This document shows positions 36 through 34,735 of a stretch of DNA of 52,530 nucleotides, one piece after another (position 1 is the first letter of the stretch; the number at the start of each line of letters is the position of its first letter). The DNA lies in assembly GCF_902168435.1 (NCBI RefSeq), contig NZ_LR656183.1, positions 1 through 52,530 on the forward strand. The letters are read 5' to 3'. This stretch comes from Bacillus marasmi. GTDB taxonomy: Bacteria > Bacillota > Bacilli > Bacillales > Cytobacillaceae. The notes under the pieces were generated by a model. The model did no database searches. It was not told the DNA's origin and worked only from the letters and a program-made list of their open reading frames with translations. The translations under genes were made by a program, and so were the position numbers.

Positions 36-236
36 ATTTGCACAGAAAAATAGCGATATGCACGCCCAATCGTGAATATGATACAATTCAAAAAATATAT
101 GCACGACTTTTGAAATATATGATACAAGTTTTCAAATATATGCACGACTTTTGGCGTAACAAAATTTATATGCACACAAAATCACAGATATGCACGTTTA
201 AATGTGGATATGCACACAAATAGTCATATATGCACA
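36..236 (+). repeat. Phased array of ATATGCAC boxes (left array)
   Basis: Ten boxes of ATATGCAC or a close variant begin at 36, 56, 76, 97, 117, 138, 168, 188, 208 and 228. Steps are 20-21 bp except one of 30 bp after the sixth box. Boxes 3 and 5 are ATATGATAC and box 1 is ATTTGCAC. Spacers are loosely related, often with ACTTTT or AAGTTTTC. The period is not a multiple of three, so this is not a peptide repeat. A matching array in reverse orientation lies at 33760-33961. I do not recognise the family. Confidence 0.85.
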
Positions 237-18207: not shown

Positions 18208-18272
18208 TTTATGGCTATGTATTGTTGTTTTCCGCTGCAGGCACGTGCGGTTCACGGGGCCAGTTGGGAGCC

Positions 18273-18389
18273 TGTCTAGCTGCAGCGGCTAGGAGCTCGG
18301 GGTCATAAGCCAAATCACTCCAGAGACTAACGTCTCTTGCGCGATTCGTCTTATGCCTGTCGCCCCTGGGCAAGCCACTTCCGCTTTTC
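18273..18389 (+). repeat. Family-A structured repeat, copy 1
   Basis: 117 bp from TGTCTAGC to CCGCTTTTC. Contains the invariant CATAAG/CTTATG pair and the inner AGAGAC/GTCTCT hairpin. Its outer arms have two mismatches, unlike most other copies. Confidence 0.85.
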
Positions 18390-18506
18390 TGTCTAGCTCC
18401 AGTGGCTAGGAGCTCGGGGTCATAAGCCAAATCACTCCAGAGACTAACGTCTCTTGCGCGATTCGTCTTATGCCTGTCGCTCCTGGGCAAGCCACTTCCG
18501 CTTTTC
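18390..18506 (+). repeat. Family-A structured repeat, copy 2
   Basis: 117 bp, directly abutting copy 1. The outer arms pair perfectly: GTGGCT with AGCCAC and AGGAGC with GCTCCT, then CATAAG with CTTATG and inner AGAGAC with GTCTCT. Confidence 0.88.
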
Positions 18507-23459: not shown

Positions 23460-23502
23460 GTAGGTAGGTCTGTCGCCCCTGAGCAAGCCACCTACGCTTT
23501 TC
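23460..23502 (+). repeat. Truncated family-A repeat
   Basis: Only the 3' part is present (TCTGTCGCCCCTGAGCAAGCC and CGCTTTTCG). The residual outer arm ACCTAC pairs with GTAGGT just upstream, so a short hairpin remains. Confidence 0.65.
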
Positions 23503-23506
23503 GTTT

Positions 23507-23621
23507 TGTCTAGCTACAGCGGCTAGGAGCACATGTCATAAGCCAAATCTCTCCAGAGACTAACGTCTCTTGCGTGATTCGTCTTATGCCAATGCTCCTG
23601 AGCAAGCCGCTTTCGCTTTTC
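23507..23621 (+). repeat. Family-A structured repeat, copy 3
   Basis: 115 bp. Outer arms GCGGCT/AGCCGC and AGGAGC/GCTCCT, CATAAG/CTTATG, inner AGAGAC/GTCTCT. Compared with copy 2 both sides of the outer stem changed together. Confidence 0.88.
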
Positions 23622-23625
23622 GTTT

Positions 23626-23747
23626 TGTCTAGCTTCGGTGGCTAGGGGCTCGGGGTCATAAGCCAATCCGTCCAGAAGGTCAAAGAACGACCTTCTAGCC
23701 GGCTCGTCTTATGCCTGTCGCCCCTGAGCAAGCCACCTACGCTTTTC
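23626..23747 (+). repeat. Family-A structured repeat, copy 4
   Basis: 122 bp. Outer arms GGTGGCT/AGCCACC and AGGGGC/GCCCCT, CATAAG/CTTATG, and a longer inner hairpin AGAAGGTC/GACCTTCT. It ends just before the mfd ribosome site. Confidence 0.88.
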
Positions 23748-23765
23748 TTTGAGAGGAGGGTTCGG

Positions 23766-26700
23766 ATGGAAGGGCTTAAAAATGTCATAACAAATTTAGA
23801 TGATGTTCAATCGGTTATTGCCGGTGTGAATGAAGGATTAAAGGAACAGTTAATCGCCGGATTATCTGGTTCGGCGCGAACACTTTTCCTTGCTTCTGTC
23901 TATGAAAAAACAAATAAACCACAACTAATCGTGACTCATAATTTACTACAAGCCCAAAAAATTTATGATGACATGATTAATTTACTCGGAGAGAAGGAAG
24001 TCTTTCTATACCCGGCTAATGAATTAATTGCTGCAGAAATCAGTATTGCTAGTCCAGAGCTAAAGGCGCAACGGATTGATACAATCAATCATTTAATTAG
24101 TGGGAATAGCGGAATCGTCATCGTTCCTGTTGCAGGTCTCAGAAAAATAGTGCCTCCAAAAGCACTTTGGGAAATCTATCAGATTTCACTTAAAGTTGGG
24201 GATGATATCAATCTAGATGAGCTATTAAATAAATTAGTAAAAATGGGCTATATTCGCGCTGATATGGTTTCCGCACCTGGTGAATTTAGCGTTCGCGGCG
24301 GGATCGTTGATATATATCCGCTAACCGAGGCAGATCCTCTCCGGATTGAGCTATTTGATACAGAGATTGATTCAATTCGGACATTTTCACTAGACAATCA
24401 GCGCTCTAAACTTAAGTTAAAGGAAGTCAGCATCGCCCCAGCGACTGAATATATATTTGAGTCTGAGCATTTTGGGAAATTGATAGAGCACATCGAGACA
24501 GGACTTGCCAAAACGTTAAAATCGGTAAAACAAGATAATGTTAAAACTTTGCTTACGCAAAATGTTGGCTATGAGCTCGAACAGCTTAAAGCGGGACAAA
24601 AACCGGAGCAAGTCTTTAAATATTTATCATTTGCTTATGAAAAAGAAAATAGTTTACTAGATTATTTACCTTCACATGCTCTCGTTTTTGTTGATGAAAT
24701 TAGCAGAGTTCAAGAAATGAATGATTCTTTGGAAAAAGAAGAAGCTGAATGGTATACAAGCTTATTAGGTGAAGGGAAAATTGTTCATGATGTAAAGATA
24801 TCCCATCAACTTACGCCTTTACTACATAAATCGCCACAGGCAATTGCATATTTATCATTATTCTTGCGGCATGTACCGAACACGAATCCGCAAAACATTA
24901 TCAATGTATCTTGTAAGCAAATGCAAAACTTTCATGGCCAAATGAATGTGTTAAAAACAGAGCTAGATCGCTGGGCGAAAGGTAAGTATACCGTTTTATT
25001 TCTTGGACCAGACGAAGAACGGGTCGATAAACTGCAGCGTGTACTAGAAGATTATGACATAGAAGCATCATTTATTGGAAAAGGACAGGATTTGCGGATA
25101 GGCAATATTCAGATAGCTGAAGGGAATTTACTAACCGGCTTTGAACTACCTATTCAAAAATTAGCTGTCATTACCGAAGAAGAATTATTTAATAAACGAA
25201 CAGCAAAAAAATCAACAAGACGCCAAAAGCTTTCGAATGCTGAACGGATAAAAAGCTACTCTGAGCTTCGTGTTGGTGATCATGTCGTTCACGTCAATCA
25301 TGGGATTGGGAAATATCTTGGTATTGAAACACTAGTGATCAATGGTGTCCATAAAGACTATCTTCATATTCGTTATCAAGGTAGTGACAAGCTTTATGTA
25401 CCAGTTGAACAAATTGATTTAGTACAAAAATACGTTGGCTCTGAAGGTAAAGAGCCAAAAATCTATAAATTAGGTGGTTCTGATTGGAAGCGGGTCAAGA
25501 AGAAAGTTGAATCGTCTGTACAAAATATTGCGGAGGATTTAATAAAGCTATATGCAGAACGTGAAGCTGCGAAAGGGCATGCTTTCTCGCCTGATGGAGA
25601 TATGCAACGTGAATTTGAAATGGCGTTCCCTTATCAAGAGACCGATGATCAAATTCGCTCTATTAACGAAATTAAAAAAGATATGGAACGAGAACGTCCA
25701 ATGGATCGTTTGCTATGCGGTGATGTCGGCTACGGGAAAACTGAAGTCGCAATTCGTGCTGCTTTTAAAGCTATCGCTGATGGGAAACAAGTGGCCTTCT
25801 TAGTACCAACAACTATTCTAGCGCAACAGCATTATGAAACTATGCGTGAGCGTTTCCAGGAATATCCGATTAAAATAGGTTTACTTAGCCGCTTTCGCAC
25901 AAGGAAGGAACAGCAGGAAACAATGAAGGGCTTAAAAGCCGGAACAGTCGATATTGTTGTCGGCACACATCGCTTGTTATCCAAGGATATTACCTATCGT
26001 GATTTAGGGTTATTAATTATTGATGAAGAGCAGCGCTTCGGTGTTACTCATAAGGAAAAAATAAAACAGTTAAAGACGAATGTTGATGTATTGACCTTAA
26101 CAGCAACACCAATTCCTAGAACGCTCCATATGTCGATGTTAGGGGTACGCGATTTATCCGTAATTGAAACTCCGCCAGAAAATCGTTTTCCAGTGCAAAC
26201 ATATGTTATGGAGTATAATGGCGGCTTAGTTAGGGAAGCAATTGAACGTGAATTAGCACGGGATGGACAGGTTTATTTCCTATATAACCGTGTCGAGGAT
26301 ATTGAGCGGAAGGCTGAAGAAATCTCGATGCTTGTTCCCGATGCCCGCGTAACTTATGCACATGGACAAATGTCTGAAAATGAACTTGAATCAGTCATGC
26401 TCGGCTTTTTAGAAGGCGAATTTGATGTATTAGTTAGCACAACCATTATTGAAACAGGTGTAGATATTCCAAATGTTAATACCCTAATTGTTTTTGATGC
26501 CGATCGGATGGGACTTTCGCAGCTTTACCAGCTCCGCGGGCGTGTTGGACGTTCAAACCGCGTTGCATATGCTTATTTTACCTATCGCAAGGATAAAGTG
26601 CTGACTGAAGTAGCTGAAAAACGTTTGCAGGCAATAAAAGAATTCACAGAACTAGGCTCAGGCTTTAAAATTGCTATGCGCGATTTATCGATTCGAGGCG

Positions 26701-33162: not shown

Positions 33163-33609
33163 ATGTCAATCGAAGTAGGCAGCAAGTTGCAAGGAAAGGT
33201 AACGGGCATTACGAAATTCGGAGCGTTTGTGGAGCTGCCAGAAGGTTCAACTGGTCTTGTTCACATCAGTGAGGTCGCAGATAATTATGTGAAGGATATC
33301 AATGATCATTTGAAAGTTGGCGACATTGTCGAAGTTAAAGTCATGAATGTTGAAAAAGATGGGAAGATTGGTCTTTCCATCAAGAAAGCTAAAGACAGAG
33401 CTGAACATAAGACACATTCGCATTCGAATTCCCACTCACACTCACAGCGTCCTCGTCATGGACGGTCAAATGATTACCGCAATAATAATAAAGTGGAAAA
33501 CTTTGAATCAAAGATGGCACGTTTCTTAAAGGATAGTGAAGATCGCTTATCGTCTTTGAAACGCAGTACTGAGTCAAAGCGCGGTGGCAGAGGGGCTAAA
33601 AGAGGTTAA
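33163..33609 (+). CDS. yabR: S1-domain RNA-binding protein YabR
   Basis: 148 residues: an N-terminal S1 domain (GSKLQGKVTGITKFGAFVEL ... GLVHISEVA ... GKIGLSIKKA, about 5-72), then a His/Ser-rich low-complexity segment and a basic Arg/Gly tail. Polynucleotide-phosphorylase-like S1 fold; likely binds RNA or ribosomes. Strong AAGGAGG before the ATG. Confidence 0.92.
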   Translation: MSIEVGSKLQGKVTGITKFGAFVELPEGSTGLVHISEVADNYVKDINDHLKVGDIVEVKVMNVEKDGKIGLSIKKAKDRAEHKTHSHSNSHSHSQRPRHGRSNDYRNNNKVENFESKMARFLKDSEDRLSSLKRSTESKRGGRGAKRG

Positions 33610-33664: not shown

Positions 33665-33693
33665 AGACAAGTCGTTATCCGGCTTGTCTTTTT
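33665..33693 (+). terminator. Terminator after yabR
   Basis: AGACAAGTC (33665-33673) and GGCTTGTCT (33681-33689) form a 9-bp stem (one G.U) with a 7-base loop, then TTTTT. Confidence 0.85.
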
Positions 33694-33759: not shown

Positions 33760-33961
33760 TGTGCATAAGAGGGGAAAACTGTGCATATATGTATTTTTTG
33801 TGCATATCGTGTTTTTCTTGTGCGAATATTTTCAGTGCTTCTCAAAAGTTGTGCATATATTTGAAAAGTCGTGTATATATCAAAAAAGTTGTATCATATA
33901 ATTTTGGAAGTGTTGCAAATAGACAATTTCGTGTGCATATATGAGTTTTGTTGTGCATATA
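33760..33961 (-). repeat. Phased array of ATATGCAC boxes (right array, inverted)
   Basis: Ten GTGCATAT-type boxes start (plus coordinates) at 33761, 33781, 33800, 33820, 33851, 33871, 33891, 33912, 33933 and 33953. Steps are 19-21 bp with one of 31. Read on the minus strand this is six boxes, a 30-bp gap and four boxes: the same layout as the left array. The last box, TTATGCACA on the minus strand, equals the relaxed DnaA box TTATNCACA. Confidence 0.85.
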
Positions 33962-34052
33962 TTTGCGTGGATAATAATAAAATTGATCAATTCTCGATTT
34001 TTTTATTAAAGTTTTCTTTTTTTAGAAAAAAATAAAGATCTTTCTTCCGGAA

Positions 34053-34088
34053 AAATAGAGATTTCCTAAAAAAATCTCTATTTTTTTA
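34053..34088 (+). terminator. Terminator-like hairpin
   Basis: AAATAGAGATTT (34053-34064) and AAATCTCTATTT (34072-34083) pair, followed by a T-run. It faces right with no plus-strand gene just upstream; on the minus strand it could be a second stop for the tRNA operon. Confidence 0.6.
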
Positions 34089-34128
34089 ATAAGACTAGTA
34101 AAAAAATGAGGAAATCAATAAATTACAC

Positions 34129-34169
34129 AAAAAAGGTTGTCCCGCACATAACTTGGGACAACCTTTTTT
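34129..34169 (-). terminator. Strong terminator at the end of the tRNA operon
   Basis: AAAAAAGGTTGTCCC (34129-34143) and GGGACAACCTTTTTT (34155-34169) form a perfect 15-bp stem with an 11-base loop. T-runs exist on both strands. On the minus strand it follows tRNA-Glu and a family-A repeat. Confidence 0.8.
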
Positions 34170-34184: not shown

Positions 34185-34187
34185 GTA

Positions 34188-34308
34188 TGTCCAGCTGCAG
34201 GTGCCATCGGCTCGAGGTCATAAGTCAATCAGTCCAAAAGGTAAAAAGCAACCTTTCGGCCTGCTCGCCTTATGCTTGTCGCCGATAAACGGGCACCTTC
34301 CGCTTTTC
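34188..34308 (+). repeat. Family-A structured repeat, copy 5
   Basis: 121 bp. Outer arms AGGTGCC/GGCACCT and ATCGGC/GCCGAT, CATAAG/CTTATG, inner AAAGGT/ACCTTT. The arm sequence is very different from other copies yet still pairs. It lies between tRNA-Glu and the operon terminator. Confidence 0.85.
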
Positions 34309-34311
34309 GTA

Positions 34312-34383
34312 TGACCCCTACGGGATTCGAACCCGTGTTACCGCCGTGAAAGGGCGGTGTCTTAACCGCTTGACCAAGGGGCC
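34312..34383 (-). tRNA. tRNA-Glu (anticodon TTC)
   Basis: 72 nt on the minus strand, complete cloverleaf: acceptor GGCCCCT/AGGGGTC, anticodon loop with TTC between GCC-rich stem arms, T-arm GGGTTCGAATCCC. The 3' CCA is not encoded. Second gene of the minus-strand tRNA operon. Confidence 0.95.
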
Positions 34384-34394
34384 GAGATAAATAA

Positions 34395-34516
34395 TGTCCA
34401 GCTGCAGTGGCTAGAGGCTCGGGGTCATAAGCCAATCCGTCCAGAAGGTTAAAGAACAACCTTCCGGCCGGCTCGTCTTATGCCTGTCGCCTCTGGGTAA
34501 GCCACTTCCGCTTTTC
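34395..34516 (+). repeat. Family-A structured repeat, copy 6
   Basis: 122 bp. Outer arms AGTGGCT/AGCCACT and AGAGGC/GCCTCT, CATAAG/CTTATG, inner GAAGGTT/AACCTTC. Lies between the two tRNA genes. Confidence 0.87.
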
Positions 34517-34519
34517 GTT

Positions 34520-34636
34520 TGTCTAGCTCCGTTCGCTAGCCCCTCGGGGTCATAAGCCAAATCACTCCAGAGGCTGACGCCTCCTGCGTGATTCGTCTTA
34601 TGCCTGTCGGGGCTGAGCAAGCGAACTCCGCTTTTC
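34520..34636 (+). repeat. Family-A structured repeat, copy 7
   Basis: 117 bp. Outer arms GTTCGCT/AGCGAAC and AGCCCC/GGGGCT, CATAAG/CTTATG, inner GAGGC/GCCTC. The most diverged copy and still fully paired. It ends five bases from tRNA-Met. Confidence 0.87.
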
Positions 34637-34640
34637 GTTA

Positions 34641-34714
34641 TAGCGGCGGAGGGGATCGAACCCCCGACCTTACGGGTATGAACCGTACGCTCTAGCCAGC
34701 TGAGCTACACCGCC
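34641..34714 (-). tRNA. tRNA-Met, elongator (anticodon CAT)
   Basis: 74 nt on the minus strand. Acceptor GGCGGTG pairs with CGCCGCT (two G.U); anticodon loop GGTTCATACC; T-loop TTCGATC. The normal G1.U72 pair and sequence resemble the Bacillus elongator tRNA-Met rather than the initiator. CCA is not encoded. First gene of the tRNA operon. Confidence 0.93.
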
Positions 34715-34735
34715 AAATATTTAAGCACAAAAAAT

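Follow-up and report, generated by a model that had tools for sequence, protein, structure and literature searches.

Two ten-box arrays in the window

The stretch analysed here, hereafter the window, comprises 52,530 nucleotides (positions 1 to 52,530 of contig NZ_LR656183.1) of Bacillus marasmi and contains two arrays of ten short direct boxes. The right array (33761..33961, minus strand) has a yabR-like S1-domain gene (33163..33609, plus) ending in its direction, a predicted intrinsic terminator (33665..33689, plus) between this gene and the boxes, and, on the opposite side, the genes for tRNA-Glu and tRNA-Met (34312..34715, minus), which are transcribed towards it. Read on the minus strand, boxes 1 (33953-33960, or 33953-33961 as the limit of the array) and 2 (33933-33940) are followed by the variant ATTTGCAAC in box 3 (33912), ATATGATAC in box 4 (33891-33899), ATATACAC in box 5 (33871) and box 6 (33851), and then, after 31 bp, by ATTCGCAC in box 7 (33820), boxes 8 and 9 (33800 and 33781) and TTATGCAC in box 10 (33761-33768); the steps are thus 20, 20, 21, 21, 20, 31, 20, 19 and 20 bp. 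The left array (36..236, plus) is situated at the contig start, ahead of gin, with boxes beginning at 36, 56, 76, 97, 117 and 138 and, 30 bp further on, at 168, 188, 208 and 228 (steps of 20, 20, 21, 20, 21, 30, 20, 20 and 20 bp). Its leader is truncated by the contig start, and it belongs to another subtype, with the four-letter box ATATGATAC at positions 3 and 5. A sequence-only reading of the window had described ten boxes per array, six and four on either side of a gap, and minor box forms common to both; the box positions confirm the former, and the presence of ATATGATAC in the right and left arrays the latter. The inverted placement of the two copies, to which the same reading had drawn attention, means little, because copies of the array exist in both orientations.

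By gene content the window is origin-proximal. Its end, which is also the contig end (52400-52530), is the start of a 16S rRNA gene, so that an rRNA operon probably flanks the window on either side. A second dispersed repeat of approximately 117 bp (GTCATAAGCC...GCGATTCGTCTTATGCC) is found in spacers of the window (18272-18505, 23475-23775 and 34187-34635); it is partly tandem and adjoins the two tRNA genes, and similar letters are present in the yabR spacer of two congeners (G002 and G003).

The layout of both arrays is far beyond chance. With a word-independent self-similarity detector (offsets 19-22), only these two segments of the window scored 18 or more: the right array reached 41.2, and the left array, at 20.2 against 17.7 for the best of six Markov-shuffled windows, cleared the controls narrowly. 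At offsets 15-18 and 23-26 the detector returned no segment in the window. The two arrays had box-chain scores of 126 and 112, and none of 300 window segments exceeded 12.6; this control is partly circular, as the box matrix was trained on the same array copies.

A dispersed family in the B. marasmi genome

The search for further copies that the sequence-only reading had proposed revealed a family. A two-box pattern gave 28 matches in the genome (G000) and none when reversed, and reading of the loci together with box-chain scoring placed 19 arrays with the word CAC on both strands of the 4.64-Mb genome, a minimum number, since the count is based on exact patterns. Six boxes followed by a step of 30-31 bp are observed in 18 of the 19, with exactly four boxes after the gap in 14; the exception, C30, has eleven boxes without a gap. 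Two subtypes exist: four-letter boxes occupy positions 3 and 5 in one (the left window array, C1, C3, C17 and C30) and positions 3 and 4 in the remaining CAC arrays. A second family, with the word CTC (TATGCTCGACTTTT), comprises at least eight arrays in the same genome (L238, L239 and six more places); the arrays listed for G001, and most of those of G002, use TATGCTCGACTTTT too.

The left window array and C1, a copy behind a 5S gene, share 98% identity over 216 bp, and five copies (C13, C16a, C16b, C19 and C23; L031-L035) lie inside repeats of approximately 700 bp with inverted ends of the type GGCTGGGACAAAA, related pieces of which match other places devoid of an array. Both records are in line with a selfish satellite, whose units would multiply by slippage and spread by copying, some within the MITE-like repeat and some with rRNA operons, being tolerated only in gene-end spacers; the copies would then be alike in their core through recent spread or gene conversion and would have no function for the host. 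We consider this a serious rival, if a rather unlikely one, to the reading developed below. A MITE as the general carrier was rejected, as it accounts for five copies only: a regular-expression search for the end motif in twelve other copies (C3 and C17 lay outside the search) found it absent in eleven and present as one half in C27b.

Within the arrays of the 19 loci read, all boxes are direct, which bears on the possibility that they are transposase-binding ends of an IS21- or Tn7-like element. IS21-family ends are likewise direct repeats, IstA binds such multi-repeat ends (PMC10122671), and some right ends of the genus carry repeats that look similar by eye, e.g. GTGGATCACTTTC, in part with a similar CACTTT motif. 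However, the IS21 repeats are 23 bp apart (PMC10122671) and not 20-21 bp as here, they form paired inverted ends around istAB, whereas no facing pair around transposase genes was seen in the 19 loci, and the flanking genes that could be named are housekeeping genes. An IS21 origin was rejected on spacing and pairing, and ends of either element are a very improbable explanation.

A composite element with a core and a phased leader

Conservation was measured on eleven copies, namely ten diverged copies from B. marasmi and one from G002; outside this set are nine of the 19 CAC copies of B. marasmi, four as near-duplicates, four as members of the other subtype, and C1. Within boxes 1-6, the mean pairwise difference was 4% for TATG, 12% for the word, 9% for the end C and 25% for the spacers, against 64% in the 5' flank, the flanks being unrelated. 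A core of approximately 65 bp, boxes 4-6 with their spacers (33843..33907, minus, in the right array), is nearly invariant, with column differences near 0 over the eleven copies, and box 7 is conserved as well. Boxes 8-10 vary by 33-67% per column, a figure that stems partly from unrealigned 19-bp steps and one truncated copy. Constraint on the six-plus-four pattern, as claimed from the window, is therefore strong in boxes 2 and 4-7 and weak in boxes 8-10, and the 'four' is its loosest part. For a selfish satellite, the poor conservation of boxes 8-10 is as expected, but almost invariant boxes 4-6 between flanks that have diverged beyond alignment are not.

The steps follow the length of the word: three-letter words are followed by a 20-bp step in 66 of 72 cases and four-letter words by a 21-bp step in 24 of 25, as counted in 12 of 35 scored chains, whose copies are related and hence not independent. 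It is thus the spacer length that is held. Steps of 19-21 bp amount to two turns of the helix and those of 30-31 bp to three, which makes the boxes face the same way; the commonest layout measures 193 bp over 19 turns, or 10.2 bp per turn.

On the 5' side of the boxes lies a leader of T- and A-tracts, which for the right array extends over 33965..34129 (minus); its membership in the element is based on group statistics, and the detector segment covers 33760-34095. Self-similarity of the leaders peaks at 20-21 bp, with 0.37 against about 0.29 at most other offsets. Over shuffles, the signal at 20/21 bp corresponds to z values of 4.3, 6.6, 4.4 and 5.8 in sets of 10, 16, 15 and 30 arrays, which include other families of the order and, in the last set, degenerate boxes that may contribute; the control offsets 16/17 are slightly high in G003 (0.339). 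The sequence-only reading had proposed a defined element of about 200 bp under constraint: it is defined, constrained and present in many copies, and, because of the phased leader, larger than 200 bp.

Genomic address

The arrays are non-coding and located in spacers; small open reading frames (ORFs) overlap a few of them (one of 116 aa), and the unit length shifts the frame. Of 61 arrays considered in B. marasmi and four congeners (G000-G004), seven at edges were set aside, and segments were dropped if they had only one or two boxes or if their strand was ambiguous. The 54 scored arrays comprise 25 in convergent, 28 in co-directional and one in divergent spacers, compared with 15, 55 and 29, respectively, among 99 array-free spacers of at least 250 bp from the same loci. 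Arrays are thus depleted in divergent spacers (1/54 vs 29/99, p=1e-5) and enriched in convergent ones (25/54 vs 15/99, p=5e-5). Only long ORFs were taken as genes, and for this reason the right array is counted as co-directional though it faces the tRNA genes. Avoidance of divergent spacers is also the expectation for a harmful insert and in this respect agrees with a selfish satellite.

The neighbours named by NCBIfam are ordinary or housekeeping genes (zwf, gnd, upp, ispH, acetate-CoA ligase and a pyridoxine kinase). Operons for rRNA appear to precede three of the 19 CAC copies (C1 and C17, both behind 5S genes, and the left window array), and in G003 a 6S gene precedes one array. Arrays use the spacer upstream of gin in four of the 19 genomes looked at there; those of G085, G013 and G202, from three other genera (L279, L283 and L285), have three other words.

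The gene-end location would suit an RNA-level element, either a small RNA or a 3'-UTR repeat, as has been proposed for published 52-nt repeats, which are transcribed in B. coagulans (PMC8161180, PMC8625621). However, array orientation in co-directional spacers shows no preference (17 vs 11, p=0.34), alignment of the arrays gave no consensus RNA structure (four pairs, none with changes on both sides), the window arrays have no Rfam match, and the right array stands behind a predicted terminator. Absence of an orientation preference and of covarying structure points to the DNA rather than the RNA level, and we give an RNA element hardly any chance. Elsewhere in the fetched loci, Rfam SECIS_3 matches just above the threshold were obtained in homologous neighbourhoods of G000 (L041 2398-2456) and G003 (L222 6283-6341).

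REP and BIME elements are situated at gene ends. They are also dispersed, extragenic and species-specific, with a suspected role in supercoiling or in the nucleoid. Their palindromic units in alternating orientation have no counterpart in the present arrays, where all boxes are direct and no structure was found.

Turnover and breadth in other genomes

Single array sites are dispensable: none of the four congeners has a CAC array behind yabR or before gin (395 bp before gin were available in G004). Such fast turnover, with both window loci empty in 4/4 congeners, is in accordance with a selfish satellite. One CAC locus is common to G000, G002 and, in degenerate form, G003, one CTC locus is common to G000 and G002, and most of the loci fetched have no common flank. 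The yabR spacer of G002 (L243 2098-2440), without CAC boxes, possesses four GGACAT or ATGTCC motifs, which might be the remains of TATGTCC boxes.

The layout with six boxes and a gap is lineage-specific. G003 has approximately 20 CAC array positions, taken in part from a congener survey that scored at most eleven candidates per genome, and the 15 whose box chains were scored, three two-array loci being scored once each, have eight to twelve boxes and no gap. The sequence-only reading had held that copies lacking the gap and the box count would make the shared layout a coincidence; this applies by half, with the gap kept in 18/19 arrays of B. marasmi and in 0/15 of G003. Conservation of the six-plus-four pattern between related species, which it had put forward for testing, holds for the one array of the CAC word in G002 and fails in all 15 scored in G003. 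A bias towards the origin, likewise put forward for testing, was not borne out: the arrays are spread all round the 4.6-Mb contig of G003, and both window loci are empty in the four congeners. On the same grounds, an origin or replichore role, and with it a DnaA-box cluster or another origin-linked element with a conserved position near the origin, was rejected. Nor is there a general rule of fork orientation, since 17 of 20 arrays run with the fork in G003 (if dnaA, whose position was inferred, is at 163.6 kb and the terminus is assumed to be opposite) but only two of the six arrays listed in G001.

In a wider survey, the strict scaffold TATGNNCNACTTTT occurring twice (the form with ACTTTT) was detected in one of 397 genomes of the order, B. 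marasmi itself, and only a looser three-box scaffold is widespread. With an open word (TATG-NN-C three times at steps of 19-21 bp), a match was found in 74 of 193 genomes of the family and in 112 of 394 genomes, or 59 of 135 genera, of the order, counting any match, single ones often being chance or coding repeats. At least five matches are present in 59 of the 394 genomes against 13 in the reversed-pattern control, some of the latter being arrays with other words. The words seen are CAC, CTC, TCC, AGC, CGC, GGC, AAC, ATC and GCC. Runs of N gave two false array calls (L252 and L282). Recurrence of helical phasing and of a phased leader with different words in other genera is not what a selfish satellite would predict.

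Relation to published Bacillus repeats

Subirana and Messeguer described tandem repeats in Bacillus and other bacteria with a constant unit of 20-21 nt (or 52 nt), species-specific sequence and a function given as unknown, and considered both binding of a nucleoid protein and transcription as possibilities (PMC8161180). Their class is delimited by units of 20-21 nt, at least four within 800 nt and mostly of equal length (PMC8161180). Each window array, with ten boxes and eight of nine steps of 19-21 bp, agrees with this unit length; as in that account, the arrays are non-coding, their words are species-specific, and several families (CAC and CTC in B. marasmi, others elsewhere) and tens of arrays occur per genome (PMC8161180). 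The signal TCGCGG of B. weihaiensis (PMC8161180) occurs in an array of G202, and its reverse complement CCGCGA in one of G012. On these shared signals we take the present arrays and the published repeats as one class, and constant size and species-specific words are accordingly reproduced here and not new.

The present arrays differ in being a degenerate composite element that is copied round the genome and has a 30-31 bp step, a phased T-tract leader and a bias towards gene ends. Moreover, the TATG-NN-C scaffold spans many genera, whereas no sequence conservation is stated in the published account, the main text of which lacks the words 'intergenic' and 'convergent' (PMC8161180). What is new comprises the open-word scaffold and the composite make-up of the element with its leader, together with the preference for gene ends and a resemblance to Rep_3 origins without rep.

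Comparison with plasmid origins

This resemblance raises the possibility of orphan iterons, i.e. origin-like pieces of Rep_3-type theta plasmids without rep, either as remnants or as decoys in the chromosome, which would titrate the initiators of plasmids that enter the cell. In 18 Bacillales records and L130, Rep_3 origins carry, upstream of rep, direct repeats of approximately 20-22 bp whose words are specific to the plasmid. On their 5' side, motif counts show a repetitive T-rich stretch in 12 of the 18 records; L340 has it as a mirror image, and in L338 and L343 it is recognisable by eye. In most of the records, the T-rich stretch, a gap and the direct repeats follow each other in the order and on the strand of leader and boxes in the present arrays. 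Both combine direct repeats spaced by roughly two helical turns with AT-rich DNA to one side. L130 has two TATGTGC units in the repeats just upstream of its Rep_3 gene, though, in a record picked out by scanning 84,980 genomes for a pattern, they may be there by chance. There is also a precedent for an effect on plasmids, as deletion of the iteron-type origin of the island SGI1 relieves incompatibility with a plasmid (PMC7433901).

Against orphan iterons, no initiator gene was found beside 15 arrays of B. marasmi: no Rep was named among their 26 flanking ORFs and four window genes, eight of these 30 being without any match. The plasmid T-rich stretch repeats at 8-17 bp, compared with 20-21 bp in the array leader, and was not seen in L337 and L344 (the L342 record is cut). 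In none of the iteron arrays of the 18 records is TATG-NN-C present more than once, and their iterons end in halves like TTTTGG-, TTTCGG- or TTTTGCG-, which the boxes lack by eye. The arrays also differ in their many chromosomal copies. A blastn comparison of four chromosomal arrays with 72,556 plasmids gave no Bacillales match: a CAC array, a CTC array and one array with another word had no plasmid match, and a second array with another word matched only five Pseudoalteromonas records and one Fischerella record at 73-78% identity. Searches of viral and phage collections with the CAC array and its patterns were negative, and the strict scaffold pattern was not found in viral contigs. Altogether we consider orphan iterons quite unlikely. 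A long shot in the same direction would be to read the published 20-21-nt repeats as iterons of the chromosome that lack an initiator, composite and origin-like (an unwinding-type leader with an iteron array), whose words record and titrate the initiators of the plasmids entering each lineage; if true, chromosomal iterons would be a passive, sequence-based defence against plasmids.

A proposed DNA platform at gene ends

Our preferred explanation, to which we assign a probability of about 50%, is that one kind of sequence-specific protein uses each array as a DNA platform, binding the boxes side by side on one helix face, with a role at gene ends in anchoring, bending or insulating the nucleoid. 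A DNA-level platform is favoured by the direct boxes, the spacing of two or three turns, the constant spacer, the leader in register and the absence of RNA structure and strand preference. The candidate protein may oligomerise along the array as an initiator does on iterons, whose cooperative binding depends on helical spacing (PMC4980987). The array would in this sense work like an iteron array, its nearest working analogue; we do not claim that it is a true one. The A/T-tract leader in box register could bend the DNA or ease its opening beside the protein array. Gene ends might keep such elements as they do no harm to promoters there, and converging or heavy transcription would strain the DNA at these places; some copies do lie behind rRNA, tRNA or 6S genes. 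Because the protein is as yet a candidate, the architectural role, of which anchoring, bending or insulating the nucleoid is the likeliest form, is one that we infer from placement.

Several observations speak against the platform. Conservation of the core may come partly from recent copying or gene conversion, the copies being related by descent; a strict ten-box complex does not predict variable boxes 8-10; the words vary between species and between arrays within one genome; and both window arrays are absent in four congeners.

Repeats to which no function has been assigned are given features in common, both in this lineage and in many of the genera sampled from the order: one scaffold, a leader, strict helical register and a location at gene ends. 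These enigmatic repeats can now be approached by looking concretely for a single family of DNA-binding proteins, for which bait DNA and negative controls are at hand. Among the named pattern stretches of other genomes, 14 of 40 were read, and many of the remaining ones are likely to be chance; convincing arrays were found in Metabacillus kandeliae, Tenuibacillus multivorans, Ureibacillus manganicus and Cytobacillus sp. NCCP-133.
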